A stretch of DNA of 64,000 bases from Candidatus Bathyarchaeota archaeon. GTDB lineage: Archaea > Thermoproteota > Bathyarchaeia > TCS64. The position numbers and the translations under genes are program-made. The notes beneath the pieces were generated by a model that was not told where the DNA came from, did no database searches, and worked only from the letters and a program-made list of their open reading frames with translations. Of the stretch, positions 7,515 through 54,976 are shown piece after piece; positions within the stretch are counted from its first letter, which is position 1, and every line of letters begins with the position of its first letter. The stretch spans positions 1 to 64,000 of the forward strand of contig JAGTRB010000012.1 of assembly GCA_018396865.1 (NCBI GenBank), written 5' to 3'.

Positions 7515-9386
7515 TTAATCTATTATTTTTGTATTTCTTAGTTTGTTTTCAACACTCTCTAATCCAAGTTTTCGAAGAGTTTCTGGCTTTGGAACGCCTC
7601 TTTCATCCCATCCCACCAGTTTATAGTATTCTTGCTTCTCTCTTTCGAACTGGTTTCTGTCGACTGTTTTGCCCTTATATGGGCCTGAGGGCAAGGGCTC
7701 CCAGAATCTGGGTGGGTTCTCATCATCTATTCCCGGCCTCCAGTTTATATCAGGCCCGCCTATAAGGAGCATGGCTCTCTGGATCTGCAGTATCCTCAGA
7801 GCCTTCTCCTCGTACCACTCTTCCCTGGTCAATCTGAAACCTGTTACTGCCTCGTAGAGCTGCAGGATCTCTTCAACCTCGATGTCGAAGGTTGTGAAGG
7901 TGCAACATGTTGCGGAGTCCGACAGTATTGATGAGGCCTCGCCGCTTCCATACTCCCTGATGGAGGCGAGAGAGGTATGGTCTCCCGCTTGAACGGAGCA
8001 GGCATATGATATATTCTTTGCAAAGTCCTCCCCGCTTCTGATCCCGTGTGCTCCAATCGCTACGCCCTTCTCGTGGACGGCGTATTGGAGGAGGTTAACC
8101 CCCTTGATTTGGCTGAGCTTCAGGGCGGCTCTGTATACCCCCTCAGCGAGGATGCCTCCTATACCCTCCCTGCGTGCCACCTTCTCGGCCAGTGAGGTGA
8201 AGGCCTCAGTATTCCCCCAACTGAGTTCTAGGCCTCCCAGCTCCTCCCTAGTTAATATTCCCCTCTGATATAGCTCCGCTGCAAATCCCAAGACCGCACC
8301 GCCCTGTATTCCGCAGAGGCCTAAGTCGTTTGCGATGTATGATATGTAGATGTTATCCTCAGGTCTGAATATTCCAAGGTTCGTGCCCATGTATGCCTCA
8401 AACTCATAGTCTGGATTGTCGCATATCGCCCCTGCAAATTTCCCAGATCTTATCACCGAGAGTTTAAGACATGTAACAGGGCAGCCGAAGTCTCCCCAAT
8501 ACCTTTTAACCCAGTATTTATCGAACTCCTCCCCCTTGAAACTCTCCACATTGTGCCATTCCTCCTGCCAGTTCCTTATAGGCTCCGAGCTGGTTTCAGC
8601 CCCAAAGTGGTAGCCGCCCCTACCCGTCCCCCACCTCCTGAAATCCTCTATCTCGAAATTCCTCCTGGAAAACTCATCAAACAGTTGGATCGCCTTTTCC
8701 ATATCGTGAGCCTCAGGGAGGGGTCCGAACCCCTTCACTACGATCGCCTTTAGATTCTTTGAGCCCATCACCCCGCCATATCCGCCATACCCAGCCCCAT
8801 GGGCGTATTTGGAGACCACCGCAGCAACCCTAGTCCTGTTCTCTCCAGCGGGGCCGATATAGAGGATTGATGGCTCCTTCACCTCCCCATAATTCGGCCT
8901 AAGCCTCTTTATATCTTCAACAGACCTCTTTACCAGATGCTTTAATGTCTCCCTACCTCCTTTGCCCCATATAGAGGTAGCATCCCTGATCTCGATCTGA
9001 CCATCGCATACGAGGATGTAGCTAGGCCTCTCGGCCCTCCCGGTTATTATTAAGCCGTCATATCCGGCGCACTTCAGATCTACACCGAACTCTCCCGCTA
9101 TGGTGGAACCGATCATCCCATTGCTCTGAGGAGACTTCCCAGAGATACAGACCTTCGTTCCAGGAATAAACCCAGTCAGGGGCCCGGTTAACACTAGAAG
9201 AATATTATCGGGGGAGAAGGGGTCTATCTCCTCCCATCTTTCGCCAATCCTATCCCAGAGGATCTTCGCAGCCAAGCCCCTCCCCCCGATATAATCCCGC
9301 AGAACCTCATCGGAGAAGCTCGTCTCCTTAACAGATCCCTCCGTGAGGTCTACCTCTAGAAAGTTACCCGCATATCCCATCATCAA
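7515..9386 (-). CDS. Aldehyde:ferredoxin oxidoreductase family protein (tungstopterin), paralogue 1
   Basis: A 623-residue AOR-family enzyme, expected to oxidise an aldehyde (or catalyse a related reaction) with a tungsto-bispterin and a 4Fe-4S cluster and to pass electrons to ferredoxin. Family features include GYAGNFLEVDL at the start, GGRGLAAK at 34-41, GPLTG at 68-72 and MGSKNLKA at 208-214. The cluster site differs from the Cys-x2-Cys-x3-Cys of Pyrococcus AOR: the first position is Asp299, with Cys302 and Cys306 following. The late Cys is present as Cys494/495. The ATG overlaps the stop of the upstream polyferredoxin gene (ATGA), so the two are translationally coupled and probably form one complex. 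The substrate is unknown. Confidence 0.88.
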   Translation of the reverse strand: MMMGYAGNFLEVDLTEGSVKETSFSDEVLRDYIGGRGLAAKILWDRIGERWEEIDPFSPDNILLVLTGPLTGFIPGTKVCISGKSPQSNGMIGSTIAGEFGVDLKCAGYDGLIITGRAERPSYILVCDGQIEIRDATSIWGKGGRETLKHLVKRSVEDIKRLRPNYGEVKEPSILYIGPAGENRTRVAAVVSKYAHGAGYGGYGGVMGSKNLKAIVVKGFGPLPEAHDMEKAIQLFDEFSRRNFEIEDFRRWGTGRGGYHFGAETSSEPIRNWQEEWHNVESFKGEEFDKYWVKRYWGDFGCPVTCLKLSVIRSGKFAGAICDNPDYEFEAYMGTNLGIFRPEDNIYISYIANDLGLCGIQGGAVLGFAAELYQRGILTREELGGLELSWGNTEAFTSLAEKVARREGIGGILAEGVYRAALKLSQIKGVNLLQYAVHEKGVAIGAHGIRSGEDFAKNISYACSVQAGDHTSLASIREYGSGEASSILSDSATCCTFTTFDIEVEEILQLYEAVTGFRLTREEWYEEKALRILQIQRAMLLIGGPDINWRPGIDDENPPRFWEPLPSGPYKGKTVDRNQFEREKQEYYKLVGWDERGVPKPETLRKLGLESVENKLRNTKIID

Positions 9387-9916
9387 CCTTCAACCTCCCT
9401 AGCGATCTCCTCACCGAATAGCCTCCTCGCAACCGCCGAGGTCAGGATCTCAGGGGTCTTCGCATAAAGCCTATATGAGAACCCTTCAACCCTGGGCACA
9501 GCCCTCAAGGCGTTCCATCTCCCCATCCTGCAAGCCTCAACACACCTCGGATCCCCATCACACAGGTCGCATATGACAATATGATCTTTTCTAGGATGTA
9601 GGTGGGGGACCCTTCCCGGGCAGGCAGTTATGCAAACCCCGCATGAAGTACACCTCGAGGCATCAACCCTCACAGCACCCGTCTCTGCATCAGCTGATAA
9701 CGCTCCGGAAGGGCAGGCGTTCACGCAAGGATAGTCTTCACATTGAAAACAGAGATGAGGAATCTCAACTCCCGGAATTAACATGAAGACCCTCACCCTA
9801 GAAGCCTCGGGCCAGACCCTACCCTCATGATACAATGAGCAGGCTATCTCACACCTCCTGCAACCGCTACAACTCTCATAATCCCTTTCGATCCAAATCC
9901 TTCTAGCTCCAACCAT
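9383..9916 (-). CDS. Four-cluster ferredoxin subunit partnering the AOR
   Basis: An iron-sulfur electron-transfer subunit of the HycB/NrfC/DmsB type with four Cys groups: CSGCRRCEIAC, CFQCEDYPCVNAC, CTSCGVCITAC and CDLCDGDPRCVEAC, enough for four 4Fe-4S clusters. It should carry electrons from the AOR active site to a soluble ferredoxin or other acceptor, like the small Fe-S subunits of WOR5- and BamC-type systems. I start it at the ATG at 9916 because GAGGTG lies about 8 bases upstream; a TTG at 9952 is in frame but has no such site. An AT-rich TATA-like stretch at about 9960-9980 is the likely promoter of the two-gene unit. It is closely similar to the protein at 54458-54976. Confidence 0.88.
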   Translation of the reverse strand: MVGARRIWIERDYESCSGCRRCEIACSLYHEGRVWPEASRVRVFMLIPGVEIPHLCFQCEDYPCVNACPSGALSADAETGAVRVDASRCTSCGVCITACPGRVPHLHPRKDHIVICDLCDGDPRCVEACRMGRWNALRAVPRVEGFSYRLYAKTPEILTSAVARRLFGEEIAREVEG

Positions 9917-10036
9917 CAATGGCACCTCACATATGGATTTGATCAGGATCAATGGAATTATAGATTTAAAAAATTTTAAAAAGGCCCCGTTAAACGAAAA
10001 AGTTGCTTAATTAATCTTTTTTGGGAATAAATTTCT

Positions 10037-47998: not shown

Positions 47999-49840
47999 CT
48001 ATTTCAGGCTTGTATATCTCTCTAGCTGCTCTGCCTCTTCGCTCAGCCCTAATCTCTGGAGGGTGGCCTTCCTGGGTATGCCCCTTTCGTCCCATCCCCT
48101 CTTCTCGTAGTAGACCTGCAGGAGCCTGTCATAATTCTCCCTGGACAGGTGGGAGCCCTTTATCGGTCCCTCCTTCAGGGCTTCGTCAAACCATCTGGAT
48201 GGTGGATAGTCCTGCTCCCTACACCAGTTTCCCCCGAACTCCCTAACCCAGAAGGCCCTGATCAACGCGTAGACCCTGTCCCCCAAGGTGAACATCTCCT
48301 CAAGGCTCGTCTTGACCCCTGTAGCTGCCTCGAAGAACTTTGTATACCATTCAAGCTCGAAGCCAAGCTCTATCCATGGGAACCTGCATGTGACGAGCTC
48401 CTCGAACATCCCCCCCCTGATCCTCTGGAACTCTATAACCTTATCCGCCTTCTCGGGGTTGTATTCAGCTCTCCTCCCCGTGGATATCTCCCATGAGATA
48501 ACCCATGCATCCTTGTGGTGGGCCCCAATGGGTGAGGTCGCAAAGCTGAGGGCCATGCCGGGCACGAGGTGGCAGTCATATGCGCTGCACTCGAGTCCCT
48601 TTACATGTATGGCCCATCTTTGGGCTCCTCCCCCCAGCCTCTCAGAAGCCTTCTTAACCCCTAGGGATAGGAGGTCGCCGACACCTCTCCTGAATGCGAT
48701 ATCCTTTATAAGGCCCTTAGCGCCCTCGAAGTCCCCCCAGGTGATGTCTAGGTCTAGGACCCCCTTCTCAGCCGACTCCATGGCGAATCCAATCGTGTTA
48801 CCAGCACTTATGGTGTCTAAGCCGAGTTCGTCGCACATCCTGTTCAGGGTGGCGACCTTTCTAAGGTCTCCGAGCCCTATGTTAGAGCCTAGCATGGCGA
48901 CATTCTCGTAGTCCAGCTCGCTCTCCCTCCCCTCTGAGTCCATCACAACGTTTCCGCATATCATATTGCAGTTGGGACATCCCCTCTGCTTTACCACCAT
49001 CTTCTCCATGGTCGTCCCGCTTATGGCATCGGCCTCCTCGAAGACCCCCTCCCTAAAGTTGTAGGTGGGTAGCGTGCTGTTGACCTGGCACCATTCGATC
49101 GTGGCCATGGTTCCCTGCCTCCTCCAGAAGTTGTAGTTATCCCTTTTCAGTATCGACTGGTATCCCTCCTGCCCCAGCTCCCTCAGACTCTTCGGGTCGT
49201 GGGCCTGGGGCTCCCCGGATCCATTGATGACCAAGGCCTTGAGCTTCTTAGAGCCCATCACAGCCCCCATCCCCGGTCTTCCGCCAGCCCTCCCCTCCTG
49301 GGAGACGACTGTGGCGAAGCTCACGAGGTTCTCGCCTGCTGGGCCTATAAGTAGGACTCCCGAGCCCCTCCCATGGGCATCCTTCAACCCCGCCTCAGCC
49401 TTGAAGGAGTCGAGGCCCCAAAGGTCGGAGGCATCCCTCAGCTCAATCCTCTCATCCTCTATCAGGAGATAACTGGGCTTGTCCGCCCTACCCGTTATGA
49501 TCACCGCGTCGTAGCCGGCCCTCCTCAGGTTGACCGCCGCCGTTGAGCCGAGATTTCCATCCCCATATCCCCCTGTAAGGGGGCTCTTCGATGCAACGAC
49601 GAGCTTGCCGCTGCTGGGCAGCGCATAACCCGTCAGGGGTCCTGCGGCGAAGATGAGAATGTTCTCGGGGCTTAATGGGTCTGTTCCGGGCCTGAGTTCA
49701 TCCCATAATAGCTTTACTGCGAAGCCTCTCCCTCCCACAAACCTCTCAGCCAGATCCCTCGGATACTCCTCGACGTTCTTCTTACCCGTTGTCAGGTTGA
49801 ATCTCAGGAGGCGTCCATTCCAGCCCTTCAAAGGATCCAC
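47999..49840 (-). CDS. Aldehyde:ferredoxin oxidoreductase (canonical cluster motif), paralogue 2
   Basis: A 613-residue AOR-family tungsten enzyme with NGRLLRFNLTTG, GGRGFAVKLLW, GPLTGYALP and MGSKKLKA. The 4Fe-4S site is the canonical C-x2-C-x3-C in GCPNCNMICGN, and the late Cys is in LVTCRFPW, so it differs from the two other AORs here. It should oxidise an aldehyde to the acid and reduce ferredoxin. The MoaD gene is 65 bases upstream on the same strand, probably one transcript. No dedicated polyferredoxin is adjacent, so it likely donates to soluble ferredoxin. Confidence 0.9.
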   Translation of the reverse strand: MDPLKGWNGRLLRFNLTTGKKNVEEYPRDLAERFVGGRGFAVKLLWDELRPGTDPLSPENILIFAAGPLTGYALPSSGKLVVASKSPLTGGYGDGNLGSTAAVNLRRAGYDAVIITGRADKPSYLLIEDERIELRDASDLWGLDSFKAEAGLKDAHGRGSGVLLIGPAGENLVSFATVVSQEGRAGGRPGMGAVMGSKKLKALVINGSGEPQAHDPKSLRELGQEGYQSILKRDNYNFWRRQGTMATIEWCQVNSTLPTYNFREGVFEEADAISGTTMEKMVVKQRGCPNCNMICGNVVMDSEGRESELDYENVAMLGSNIGLGDLRKVATLNRMCDELGLDTISAGNTIGFAMESAEKGVLDLDITWGDFEGAKGLIKDIAFRRGVGDLLSLGVKKASERLGGGAQRWAIHVKGLECSAYDCHLVPGMALSFATSPIGAHHKDAWVISWEISTGRRAEYNPEKADKVIEFQRIRGGMFEELVTCRFPWIELGFELEWYTKFFEAATGVKTSLEEMFTLGDRVYALIRAFWVREFGGNWCREQDYPPSRWFDEALKEGPIKGSHLSRENYDRLLQVYYEKRGWDERGIPRKATLQRLGLSEEAEQLERYTSLK

Positions 49841-52606: not shown

Positions 52607-54457
52607 TTATGTCTTTCTGAGCTTTGAGAGTTGGGGTTCGAGGTATTCTAGGCCGAGCCTCTCCAGGGTCTCCCTCTTGGGGATCCCTCTCTCATCCCAG
52701 CCTAACACCTTGTAATAGTTCCTCTTCATCACCTCGACAGCAGCCCTGTCCGTCGCCTTTCCCTTATATGGGCCTTCGGGCAGAGGCTCATAGAATCTCG
52801 GCGGGTTGTCGAAATCCTTCTCCGGATTCCAATAAATGTCTGGCCCTCCGAGCAGGAGTAGCGCCTGCTGGAGGGTTACTATCCTGGGGCCGTGCTCAGT
52901 GCACCACCTATGCCTAGTTATATTCCAGCCTGTCACAGCCCTCGCGAACTCCCATATAAGCCTATCATATGAGCAGAATCCGCATACCACGGCGGAGTCG
53001 TTGAACACCGACCATCTCATATCATCATATCCATCCCTTGTGCTTGATGTATGGTCTCCCCCCTGAACCGAGGCCGCATAGCCTATTGGGTTCATATCTC
53101 TTCCGCTCCTCGTCCCATGGGCTCCGACCTCAACCCCCTTAACCTGGACCGCGTAGGGGGTCACATCTACCCCCTTCAGCTTTGAGATCTTCAGGGCCGC
53201 CCTATATGTTCCCTCAGCCAGTATGTCACCTACTCCCTCCCTTTTAGAGATCATCCAGGCGAGCTTGGTGAAGGCCTCGGCGTCACCCCACTCCATCTCG
53301 AAGCCCAGGTCTTCCCTGGTCAGGATACCCCTCTGGTATAGCTCGGCGGCGAAGGCCATAGTGTTCCCGGAGTTTATCCCTGAGAGGCCTAGGTTGTCGA
53401 TGACTGCGCTTAGGTGGGTGGCATCCTCGGCGTTGAATATGCCTAGATTTGGGCCGAGATAGGCTTGCATCTCATAGTCTGGTGCATCTGTTATGTCGCC
53501 CTTCCACCTTCCGGCCTTTATGCAGCTAAGCTTCATGCAGCTCAGGGTGCAGTTGAAGTCTGACCAATACCTCTTGGCCCAGTAGGGAACCTCGAACCTC
53601 GGCCCCCCTATGCCTCTCTCGTCATGCCATTCGCTCTGCCAGTTCCTCACCGGCTCTGAGCTCATCTCCGCCCCGACGGAGTAGCCTCCATATCCTGTGC
53701 CCCAACGCCTGAACCTTTCCCTAGATATGAGGTTGCTGTGGATCTCCCTCCATAGGACCTTCACGGTCTCGGGTGCAGCTACCTCCGGGAGGGGTCCATG
53801 GCCCTTGGCGGCGATTGCCTTGAGGTTCTTAGAACCCATCACCGCCCCGTATCCTCCGTACCCAGCGGCGTGGCAGATCTTCGTCATCACGGCAGCTGTT
53901 CTAATCCTGTTCTCCCCTGCTGGGCCTATGTATATGATGCCGGGCTCCTTGTAGAGGCCGAGATTCGGTTTTCTCCTCTCCAGCTCCCCTGTGATCTCTC
54001 TATTCATTATCCTTATAGTCTCCTCCCCCGTTTTACCCCAGAGATGCTCAGCCCCTCTGATCTCACCTCCCTGGTCTGTGACTAGGATGTAGACTGGGCT
54101 CTTAGCCCTGCCTGTTACTATGACTCCATCATATCCCGCCATCTTCAACTCGGATGCGAACTCCGAGCTAGCCGTAGCCCCTATCACGCCGTTGCTCAGG
54201 GGTGACTTCCCCGAGCAGCATATCCGAGAACCTGGATATATGCCCGTCAACGGGCCCGTCATGGCTAGGAAGATGTTCTCTGGGCCTAAGGGGTCAACAT
54301 GAGGCCATCTATCCCCAAGCCTGTCCCATAGAACCTTGGCAGCAAGCCCTCTCCCCCCAAAGAAGGCCTCTAAAACCCCCTCCCCGAGCGTGGTCTCCCA
54401 TATCTTCTCCCTCGATAGGTCTACTTCAAGAAGCTTCCCGGCGTATCCTCTGGGCAT
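52607..54457 (-). CDS. Aldehyde:ferredoxin oxidoreductase family protein, paralogue 3
   Basis: A 616-residue AOR-family tungstopterin enzyme, very similar to paralogue 1 (shared PRGYAGKLLEVDL-like start, GGRGLAAKVLWDR, GPLTGIYPG, RWGTGYGGYS, MGSKNLKAI). As in paralogue 1, the cluster motif starts with Asp300 instead of Cys: DFNCTLSC with Cys303 and Cys307. The late Cys region is VVCGFCSYD. It begins directly after the polyferredoxin stop, so the two subunits are made together. The shared Asp and the shared partner gene suggest a specialised subfamily rather than decay. The substrate is unknown. Confidence 0.88.
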   Translation of the reverse strand: MPRGYAGKLLEVDLSREKIWETTLGEGVLEAFFGGRGLAAKVLWDRLGDRWPHVDPLGPENIFLAMTGPLTGIYPGSRICCSGKSPLSNGVIGATASSEFASELKMAGYDGVIVTGRAKSPVYILVTDQGGEIRGAEHLWGKTGEETIRIMNREITGELERRKPNLGLYKEPGIIYIGPAGENRIRTAAVMTKICHAAGYGGYGAVMGSKNLKAIAAKGHGPLPEVAAPETVKVLWREIHSNLISRERFRRWGTGYGGYSVGAEMSSEPVRNWQSEWHDERGIGGPRFEVPYWAKRYWSDFNCTLSCMKLSCIKAGRWKGDITDAPDYEMQAYLGPNLGIFNAEDATHLSAVIDNLGLSGINSGNTMAFAAELYQRGILTREDLGFEMEWGDAEAFTKLAWMISKREGVGDILAEGTYRAALKISKLKGVDVTPYAVQVKGVEVGAHGTRSGRDMNPIGYAASVQGGDHTSSTRDGYDDMRWSVFNDSAVVCGFCSYDRLIWEFARAVTGWNITRHRWCTEHGPRIVTLQQALLLLGGPDIYWNPEKDFDNPPRFYEPLPEGPYKGKATDRAAVEVMKRNYYKVLGWDERGIPKRETLERLGLEYLEPQLSKLRKT

Positions 54458-54976
54458 CTATAACACCTCCATCCCTTTCTCCCCGAAGAGGTTCACCGCA
54501 AGCTCCCTCGCGACCTCTATGGGTTTCCTTGAGAAGAGCTTCCTGTTCAAGTTCTGCCCCTCTCTAACCAATTGAAGGGCTTCATAGCCCGCCTCACCGC
54601 AGACCTTCACGCATTGGGGGTCCCCGCCGCAGAGGTCGCATATAGTTGCCTTCCCATCCTTAGGATGTAGAAACGGTACCTTTCCTGGGCAGGCATCTAT
54701 ACATTTTCCACAACCTATACACTTATCCCTGTCCACCAGGACGGCGGTAGTCTCATCAACCTTGAGGGCTTCAACTGGGCAGGACTTGACGCATGGGTAG
54801 TCGTCGCACTGGGCGCATAGGTGGGGCACCTCCAACCCCGGGAATGGCATGAAGACCCTCACCCTGGAAGCCTCGGGCCAGAACCAACCCTCATGGTTAA
54901 GGCTGCAGGCCAACTCGCATCGCCTACATCCAGAGCACTTCGGATAATCCCTGAATATCCATATCGGCTCTTTCAT
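54458..54976 (-). CDS. Four-cluster ferredoxin subunit partnering the third AOR
   Basis: A 172-residue protein with four Cys groups like those of the protein at 9383-9916: CSGCRRCELAC, CAQCDDYPCVKSC, CIGCGKCIDAC and CDLCGGDPQCVKVC. It is the electron-transfer subunit of the adjacent AOR and is its close paralogue's counterpart. The gene order ferredoxin-AOR and the sequence likeness show the pair was duplicated as a unit. ATG start. Confidence 0.9.
   Translation of the reverse strand: MKEPIWIFRDYPKCSGCRRCELACSLNHEGWFWPEASRVRVFMPFPGLEVPHLCAQCDDYPCVKSCPVEALKVDETTAVLVDRDKCIGCGKCIDACPGKVPFLHPKDGKATICDLCGGDPQCVKVCGEAGYEALQLVREGQNLNRKLFSRKPIEVARELAVNLFGEKGMEVL

Follow-up and report, generated by a model that had tools for sequence, protein, structure and literature searches.

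Aspartate at the first [4Fe-4S] ligand position of two bathyarchaeotal tungsten oxidoreductases is a clade-wide feature of WOR5/ASOR

Two of the three AOR family tungsten oxidoreductases encoded in the window, AOR1 and AOR3, have Asp in place of the first Cys of the proximal [4Fe-4S] cluster: is this Asp a functional ligand, and to which enzymes does it belong? The window is the whole stretch of DNA analysed, i.e., 64,000 nucleotides of contig JAGTRB010000012.1 (Candidatus Bathyarchaeota archaeon, assembly GCA_018396865.1). According to the original prediction, the shared Asp-x2-Cys-x3-Cys motif is a functional variant in which Asp is the fourth cluster ligand, possibly with a changed redox potential or a labile cluster. 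The positions and residue numbers given there, for AOR1 (8469-8492) and for AOR3, are exact by translation. The features concerned are the following.

7515-9386, minus strand: AOR1, WOR5/ASOR-type tungsten oxidoreductase large subunit (WorL), 623 aa; AFOR_N and AFOR_C above the Pfam cut-offs.
8490-8492, minus strand: AOR1 Asp299 codon (GAC), putative non-cysteine cluster ligand; read by translation, aligned with PfAOR C288 and PfWOR5 D299.
8481-8483 and 8469-8471, minus strand: AOR1 C302 (TGC) and C306 (TGT), second and third cluster ligands; read by translation.
7902-7904, minus strand: AOR1 Cys495 codon, fourth cluster ligand; opposite PfAOR C494 in the alignment.
9383-9952, minus strand: WorS-type four-cluster ferredoxin subunit, whose gene shares 4 bases with the start of AOR1; best structure 6x6u_B (PfWOR5 Fe-S subunit), E=1.3e-59.
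47999-49840, minus strand: AOR2, FOR-like tungsten oxidoreductase, contrast case; PfFOR 1b25, E=2.7e-240.
52607-54457, minus strand: AOR3, second WOR5/ASOR-type large subunit, 616 aa; 6x6u_A, E=9.2e-233; both AFOR domains above the Pfam cut-offs.
53537-53560, minus strand: AOR3 motif D300-F-N-C303-T-L-S-C307; D300 (GAC) at 53558-53560, C303 at 53549-53551, C307 at 53537-53539.
54458-54976, minus strand: WorS-type four-cluster ferredoxin subunit, whose gene ends immediately ahead of AOR3; 6x6u_B, E=8.2e-59.

The translated AOR1 motif on the minus strand is W297-G-D299-F-G-C302-P-V-T-C306, D299 to C306 running from 8492 down to 8469. AOR1 is numbered from a TTG start; an ATG lying one or two codons inward may be the true start, and the numbers would then shift by 1-2. 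AOR2, located between AOR1 and AOR3, has the canonical motif C288-P-N-C291-N-M-I-C295, and no ferredoxin ORF was found at its locus. The four-Cys pattern of AOR sensu stricto and FOR (C-x2-C-x3-C...C) is thus present in AOR2 and absent from AOR1 and AOR3. The source genome (a draft of 43 contigs) contains seven AOR family members, three with the Asp motif and four with Cys. The third Asp paralogue (L007, motif DFGCPSTC) is on another contig, and all three Asp paralogues lie directly behind a 16-Cys ferredoxin gene. In the fourth-ligand motif of AOR1 two Cys are adjacent (C494 and C495, 7902-7907); there is a single Cys in AOR3 and in the third paralogue.

The closest solved structure by far to AOR1 and AOR3 is P. 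furiosus WOR5/ASOR (6X6U, 6X1O). For AOR1, 6x6u is found with E=1.4e-225 and the next enzyme, PfAOR, with E=1.2e-74, i.e., a difference of ~150 orders of magnitude; for AOR3, P. furiosus WOR5 is again the best and P. furiosus AOR is next at 1.4e-69. The AlphaFold model of AOR1 (from 23 rows) has a mean pLDDT of 82.5 and a pTM of 0.89, but residues 297-305 have a pLDDT <50, thus the model is silent on the distance between Asp and cluster and served for fold comparison only. With this model Foldseek gives 6x1o as the top match (TM 0.95, ~52% identity over the fold match).

In the structure-anchored alignment, PfAOR C288 is opposite PfWOR5 D299, and C291, C295 and C494 are opposite C302, C306 and C495. 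The PDB sequence of PfWOR5 reads W-A-D-Y-G-C-P-V-N-C in the aligned motif, the Asp being Asp299. PfWOR5 is like AOR1 in having Asp299-x2-Cys302-x3-Cys306 plus Cys495, a His at the position of PfAOR Tyr427 (H447 of AOR1 is aligned with PfAOR Y427 and PfWOR5 H446, i.e., His for the usual Tyr) and a four-cluster small subunit. It differs in that the source genome has three Asp paralogues. The P. furiosus enzymes AOR and FOR (1AOR, 1B25) have in common with AOR1 and AOR3 the family fold, the W-pterin site and Cys as ligands 2 to 4; they differ from them by Cys as first ligand and, in the case of AOR, by Tyr427 for His. To our knowledge, P. furiosus AOR and FOR have no polyferredoxin partner subunit.

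The Asp ligation of PfWOR5 is taken here from two reviews. Both give three Cys and one Asp as the ligands of the WOR5 cluster (PMC12096430, PMC10221389); this was suggested by sequence (citing Bevers 2005) and confirmed by crystallography (citing Mathew 2022), as PMC10221389 recounts. The proposal that the shared Asp is a functional variant and a fourth [4Fe-4S] ligand thus agrees with the same residue in PfWOR5. That of a labile cluster finds no support: according to PMC10221389, purified PfWOR5 gives only the S=1/2 EPR signal of [4Fe-4S]1+, whereas AOR, FOR and GAPOR give mixtures of S=3/2 and S=1/2. PMC13328260 places PfASOR in Class II, clade 40 of a 92-clade tree, and AOR1 and AOR3 would by this assignment belong to clade 40; aspartate is without mention in the available text of that paper. 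PMC12096430 states that a conserved second-shell Thr is lost in WOR5. A Thr is nevertheless found in PfWOR5 (T253) and AOR1 (T254, 8625-8627) opposite PfAOR T243, and in 36/36 Asp/Glu alignment rows, PfWOR5 included. Since PfWOR5 itself retains the aligned Thr, the statement may concern another Thr or structural position.

These comparisons very probably identify AOR1 and AOR3, each with its upstream 16-Cys ferredoxin, as two WOR5/ASOR-type (Class II WOR) heterodimers, in which the proximal [4Fe-4S] cluster would be held by three Cys and an inherited Asp and electrons would pass via the small subunit to ferredoxin. The present analysis contributes sequence, homology, conservation, gene pairing and phylogeny; the Asp ligation and the electron route come from the PfWOR5 literature, and AOR1 and AOR3 would share this ligation and chemistry. 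Among the listed ORFs, none next to AOR1 or AOR3 was recognised as a sulfonate gene, so that ASOR activity is only assumed for both.

The conservation of the motif was surveyed in 270 loci, part of a longer list of matches, which yielded 226 distinct family ORFs with a length of 480 aa or more, any rows that are identical over their last 300 residues being counted once; 28 shorter ORFs were left out. The sampling, as far as named, is archaeal only. The 226 ORFs are split by a wide score gap, the lowest member of the WOR5 clade scoring 700 bits and the highest outsider 434. The loop with Asp exceeds that of Cys-type enzymes by one residue, so that MAFFT misplaced a gap or a neighbour opposite D299 in Cys-type rows; the first ligand was consequently read as the residue three before the aligned C302, which changes L198 from «R» to Cys and L176 from «D» to Cys.

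The 181 distinct proteins of the WOR5 clade have Asp (178), Glu (2) or Cys (1) as first ligand. The other three ligands are Cys in every one of them, and the second-shell and active-site set T254, E328, H447 and H470 is equally invariant (181/181). Among the 45 other family members, 43 have four Cys and none has Asp as first ligand. The remaining two are L167, with Ser as third ligand, and L074, with a poorly aligned W; the L074 segment reads C-x3-C-x3-C, its branch is the longest of the tree and the alignment there is unsure. L167 (L167:1178-3037) is a distant family member, with Ser for the third cluster Cys (C-x2-C-x3-S). Named archaeal records account for 80 of the 181 clade members, and their titles include Bathyarchaeota, Thorarchaeota, Lokiarchaeota, Njordarchaeota, Brockarchaeota and others. 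Six further loci (L271-L276) all have Asp; they are kept outside the counts, at least some of them repeating genes already counted.

A tree was built with 66 rows, i.e., 36 of the 181 clade rows, 28 of the 45 others and two typed proteins, the motif columns being excluded. The WOR5 clade (37 rows, PfWOR5 inside) has a support of 100/100, and it is with PfWOR5, apart from the AOR and FOR types, that AOR1 and AOR3 group. Asp and Glu rows form one side of a branch (94/97), PfWOR5 being inside the Asp clade. The three ligand states need three changes on this tree (shuffled mean 23.7): one between Cys and Asp, and two in which Glu replaced Asp, each in its own lineage. A sporadic occurrence of Asp, which would have spoken against the original prediction, was looked for and is not what the counts and the tree show. 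AOR1 and AOR3 are in different, well supported subclades, thus Asp was inherited by both. That both carry it was put forward as an argument for a functional variant; the variant is functional, but the two genes descend from one Asp-bearing ancestor and are not independent evidence. Asp is best described as the inherited ligand of the WOR5 clade.

The Asp swap is real and functional. It is also a clade-wide and already published hallmark of WOR5/ASOR, of which AOR1 and AOR3 are new members, so that the finding is correct and not new. A real cluster-ligand swap was picked out from raw sequence, and its status is now settled. The survey adds that the swap is stable over ~180 archaeal sequences, that it can be told apart from the possession of a polyferredoxin partner and that Glu and Cys occur as natural alternatives.

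Asp might occupy the position and not ligate, leaving an open site with a [3Fe-4S] cluster or an easily lost iron, as reported for P. furiosus WOR4. This enzyme too has an altered cluster ligand, and PMC12096430 correlates its Fe3S4-like EPR signal with the loss of one Cys ligand. However, the change in WOR4 is from Cys to Gly (PMC12096430), i.e., not to a carboxylate, and PfWOR5, with the same Asp, gives the [4Fe-4S]1+ S=1/2 signal and has a crystallographically confirmed Asp ligand (PMC10221389). In addition, the exceptions within the clade are Glu (2/181), another carboxylate, and one Cys on the outermost branch, a pattern in keeping with a ligand. An open site in AOR1 and AOR3 is therefore very improbable.

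It is just as hard to maintain that Asp evolved in response to a four-cluster ferredoxin partner, i.e., that it tracks pairing rather than the WOR5 clade. A ferredoxin gene is indeed located upstream in 177 of the 181 clade members (the others being L018, L091, one gene of the L137 array and one of the L142 array), and 16 Cys columns are kept in nearly all of the 177 partners. However, a similar gene is upstream in 25 of the 45 non-clade relatives and downstream in 4 more, all of them Cys-type; one of these, L001, comes from the same genome as AOR1. Also paired is L198, a Cys-type enzyme and the sister of all Asp/Glu members. Pairing is thus insufficient for Asp, and it is older than Asp or independent of it. 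Asp was accordingly rejected as a marker of ferredoxin pairing. Nothing was found in favour of neutral drift, or of a sequencing error affecting two paralogues of a single draft assembly; both are refuted by the survey, where many genomes contribute to the 178 of 181 distinct homologues with Asp, and by a ligand state so strongly clustered on the tree that 0 of 500 shuffles were as low.

L018:1471-3378 encodes a full-length Asp-type enzyme with ~1.4 kb on each side devoid of a ferredoxin gene.

For the WOR5-type heterodimers preferred here, the following electron route is proposed. The substrate would be oxidised at the W-bis-pterin site. Electrons would then leave one at a time via the proximal [4Fe-4S] cluster, held by three Cys and Asp299 (AOR1) or Asp300 (AOR3), and reach soluble ferredoxin by way of the four small-subunit clusters. 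Asp lies in a remodelled loop and is accompanied by an active site having His for the usual Tyr. An Asp-ligated [4Fe-4S] cluster is known from P. furiosus ferredoxin. In PMC5411485, Asp8 is likewise given as a [4Fe-4S] ligand of Streptomyces NsrR. Both proteins have a carboxylate as fourth ligand, but their folds are unrelated to the present enzymes, and the NsrR cluster is a sensor, not an electron relay. Asp was also considered as a marker of hyperthermophiles and this is unsupported: in the source genome, the family model search for reverse gyrase gave a sub-cut-off match only, so the source organism need not be a hyperthermophile.

A modest novelty lies in the two natural Glu forms and in the Cys form that branches early. 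L198:1492-3384 (= L238) is a WOR5-clade enzyme with canonical C-x2-C-x3-C and ferredoxin genes on both sides. It is 47% identical to AOR1, its Cys codon is TGC, and it branches first in the clade. No second close copy was found in 17 genomes of its family or 398 of its phylum, the best match after itself being 50% identical. A reversion within the Asp enzymes of its own family is disfavoured, since L198 falls outside them on the tree (94/97); a topology that groups it with three Asp enzymes of this taxonomic family is 41 log units worse (AU p 0.019). The placement is provisional because it concerns a single row on a 0.92 branch and because the group for the test was picked once the tree was known.

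L019:1395-3260 and L205:1498-3339 have Glu at the ligand position (GAG, in open frames) and come from different archaeal families. The sister of L205 is an Asp enzyme (100/95), and the four other close relatives found in its family (L204, L201, L202, L250) all have Asp; L019 is joined to an Asp enzyme at 97/68. The contig of L019, deposited as Bathyarchaeota archaeon B46_G15, is also that of L094.

These forms may be read, tentatively and with considerable doubt, as a natural Cys-Asp-Glu series under selection. The Cys form of L198, with His site and polyferredoxin, would come first, followed by one switch from Cys to Asp and by two independent changes from Asp to Glu (L019, L205); the carboxylate would be kept for a chemical reason, and both Glu enzymes would hold a Glu-ligated [4Fe-4S] cluster. 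Such a reason might be, e.g., a cluster reduction coupled to a proton, or a potential tuned for the sulfonate (four-electron) reaction, and the series would imply that a tungsten enzyme can have Glu as a [4Fe-4S] ligand. In any case, the naturally occurring Glu and Cys enzymes are ready-made variants for probing the effect of a carboxylate ligand on the proximal cluster.

Finally, tandem arrays of 2-3 WOR5-type large subunit genes are found in relatives of the source genome (L134, L137, L142, L144 and L145), some of them with no intervening ferredoxin gene.
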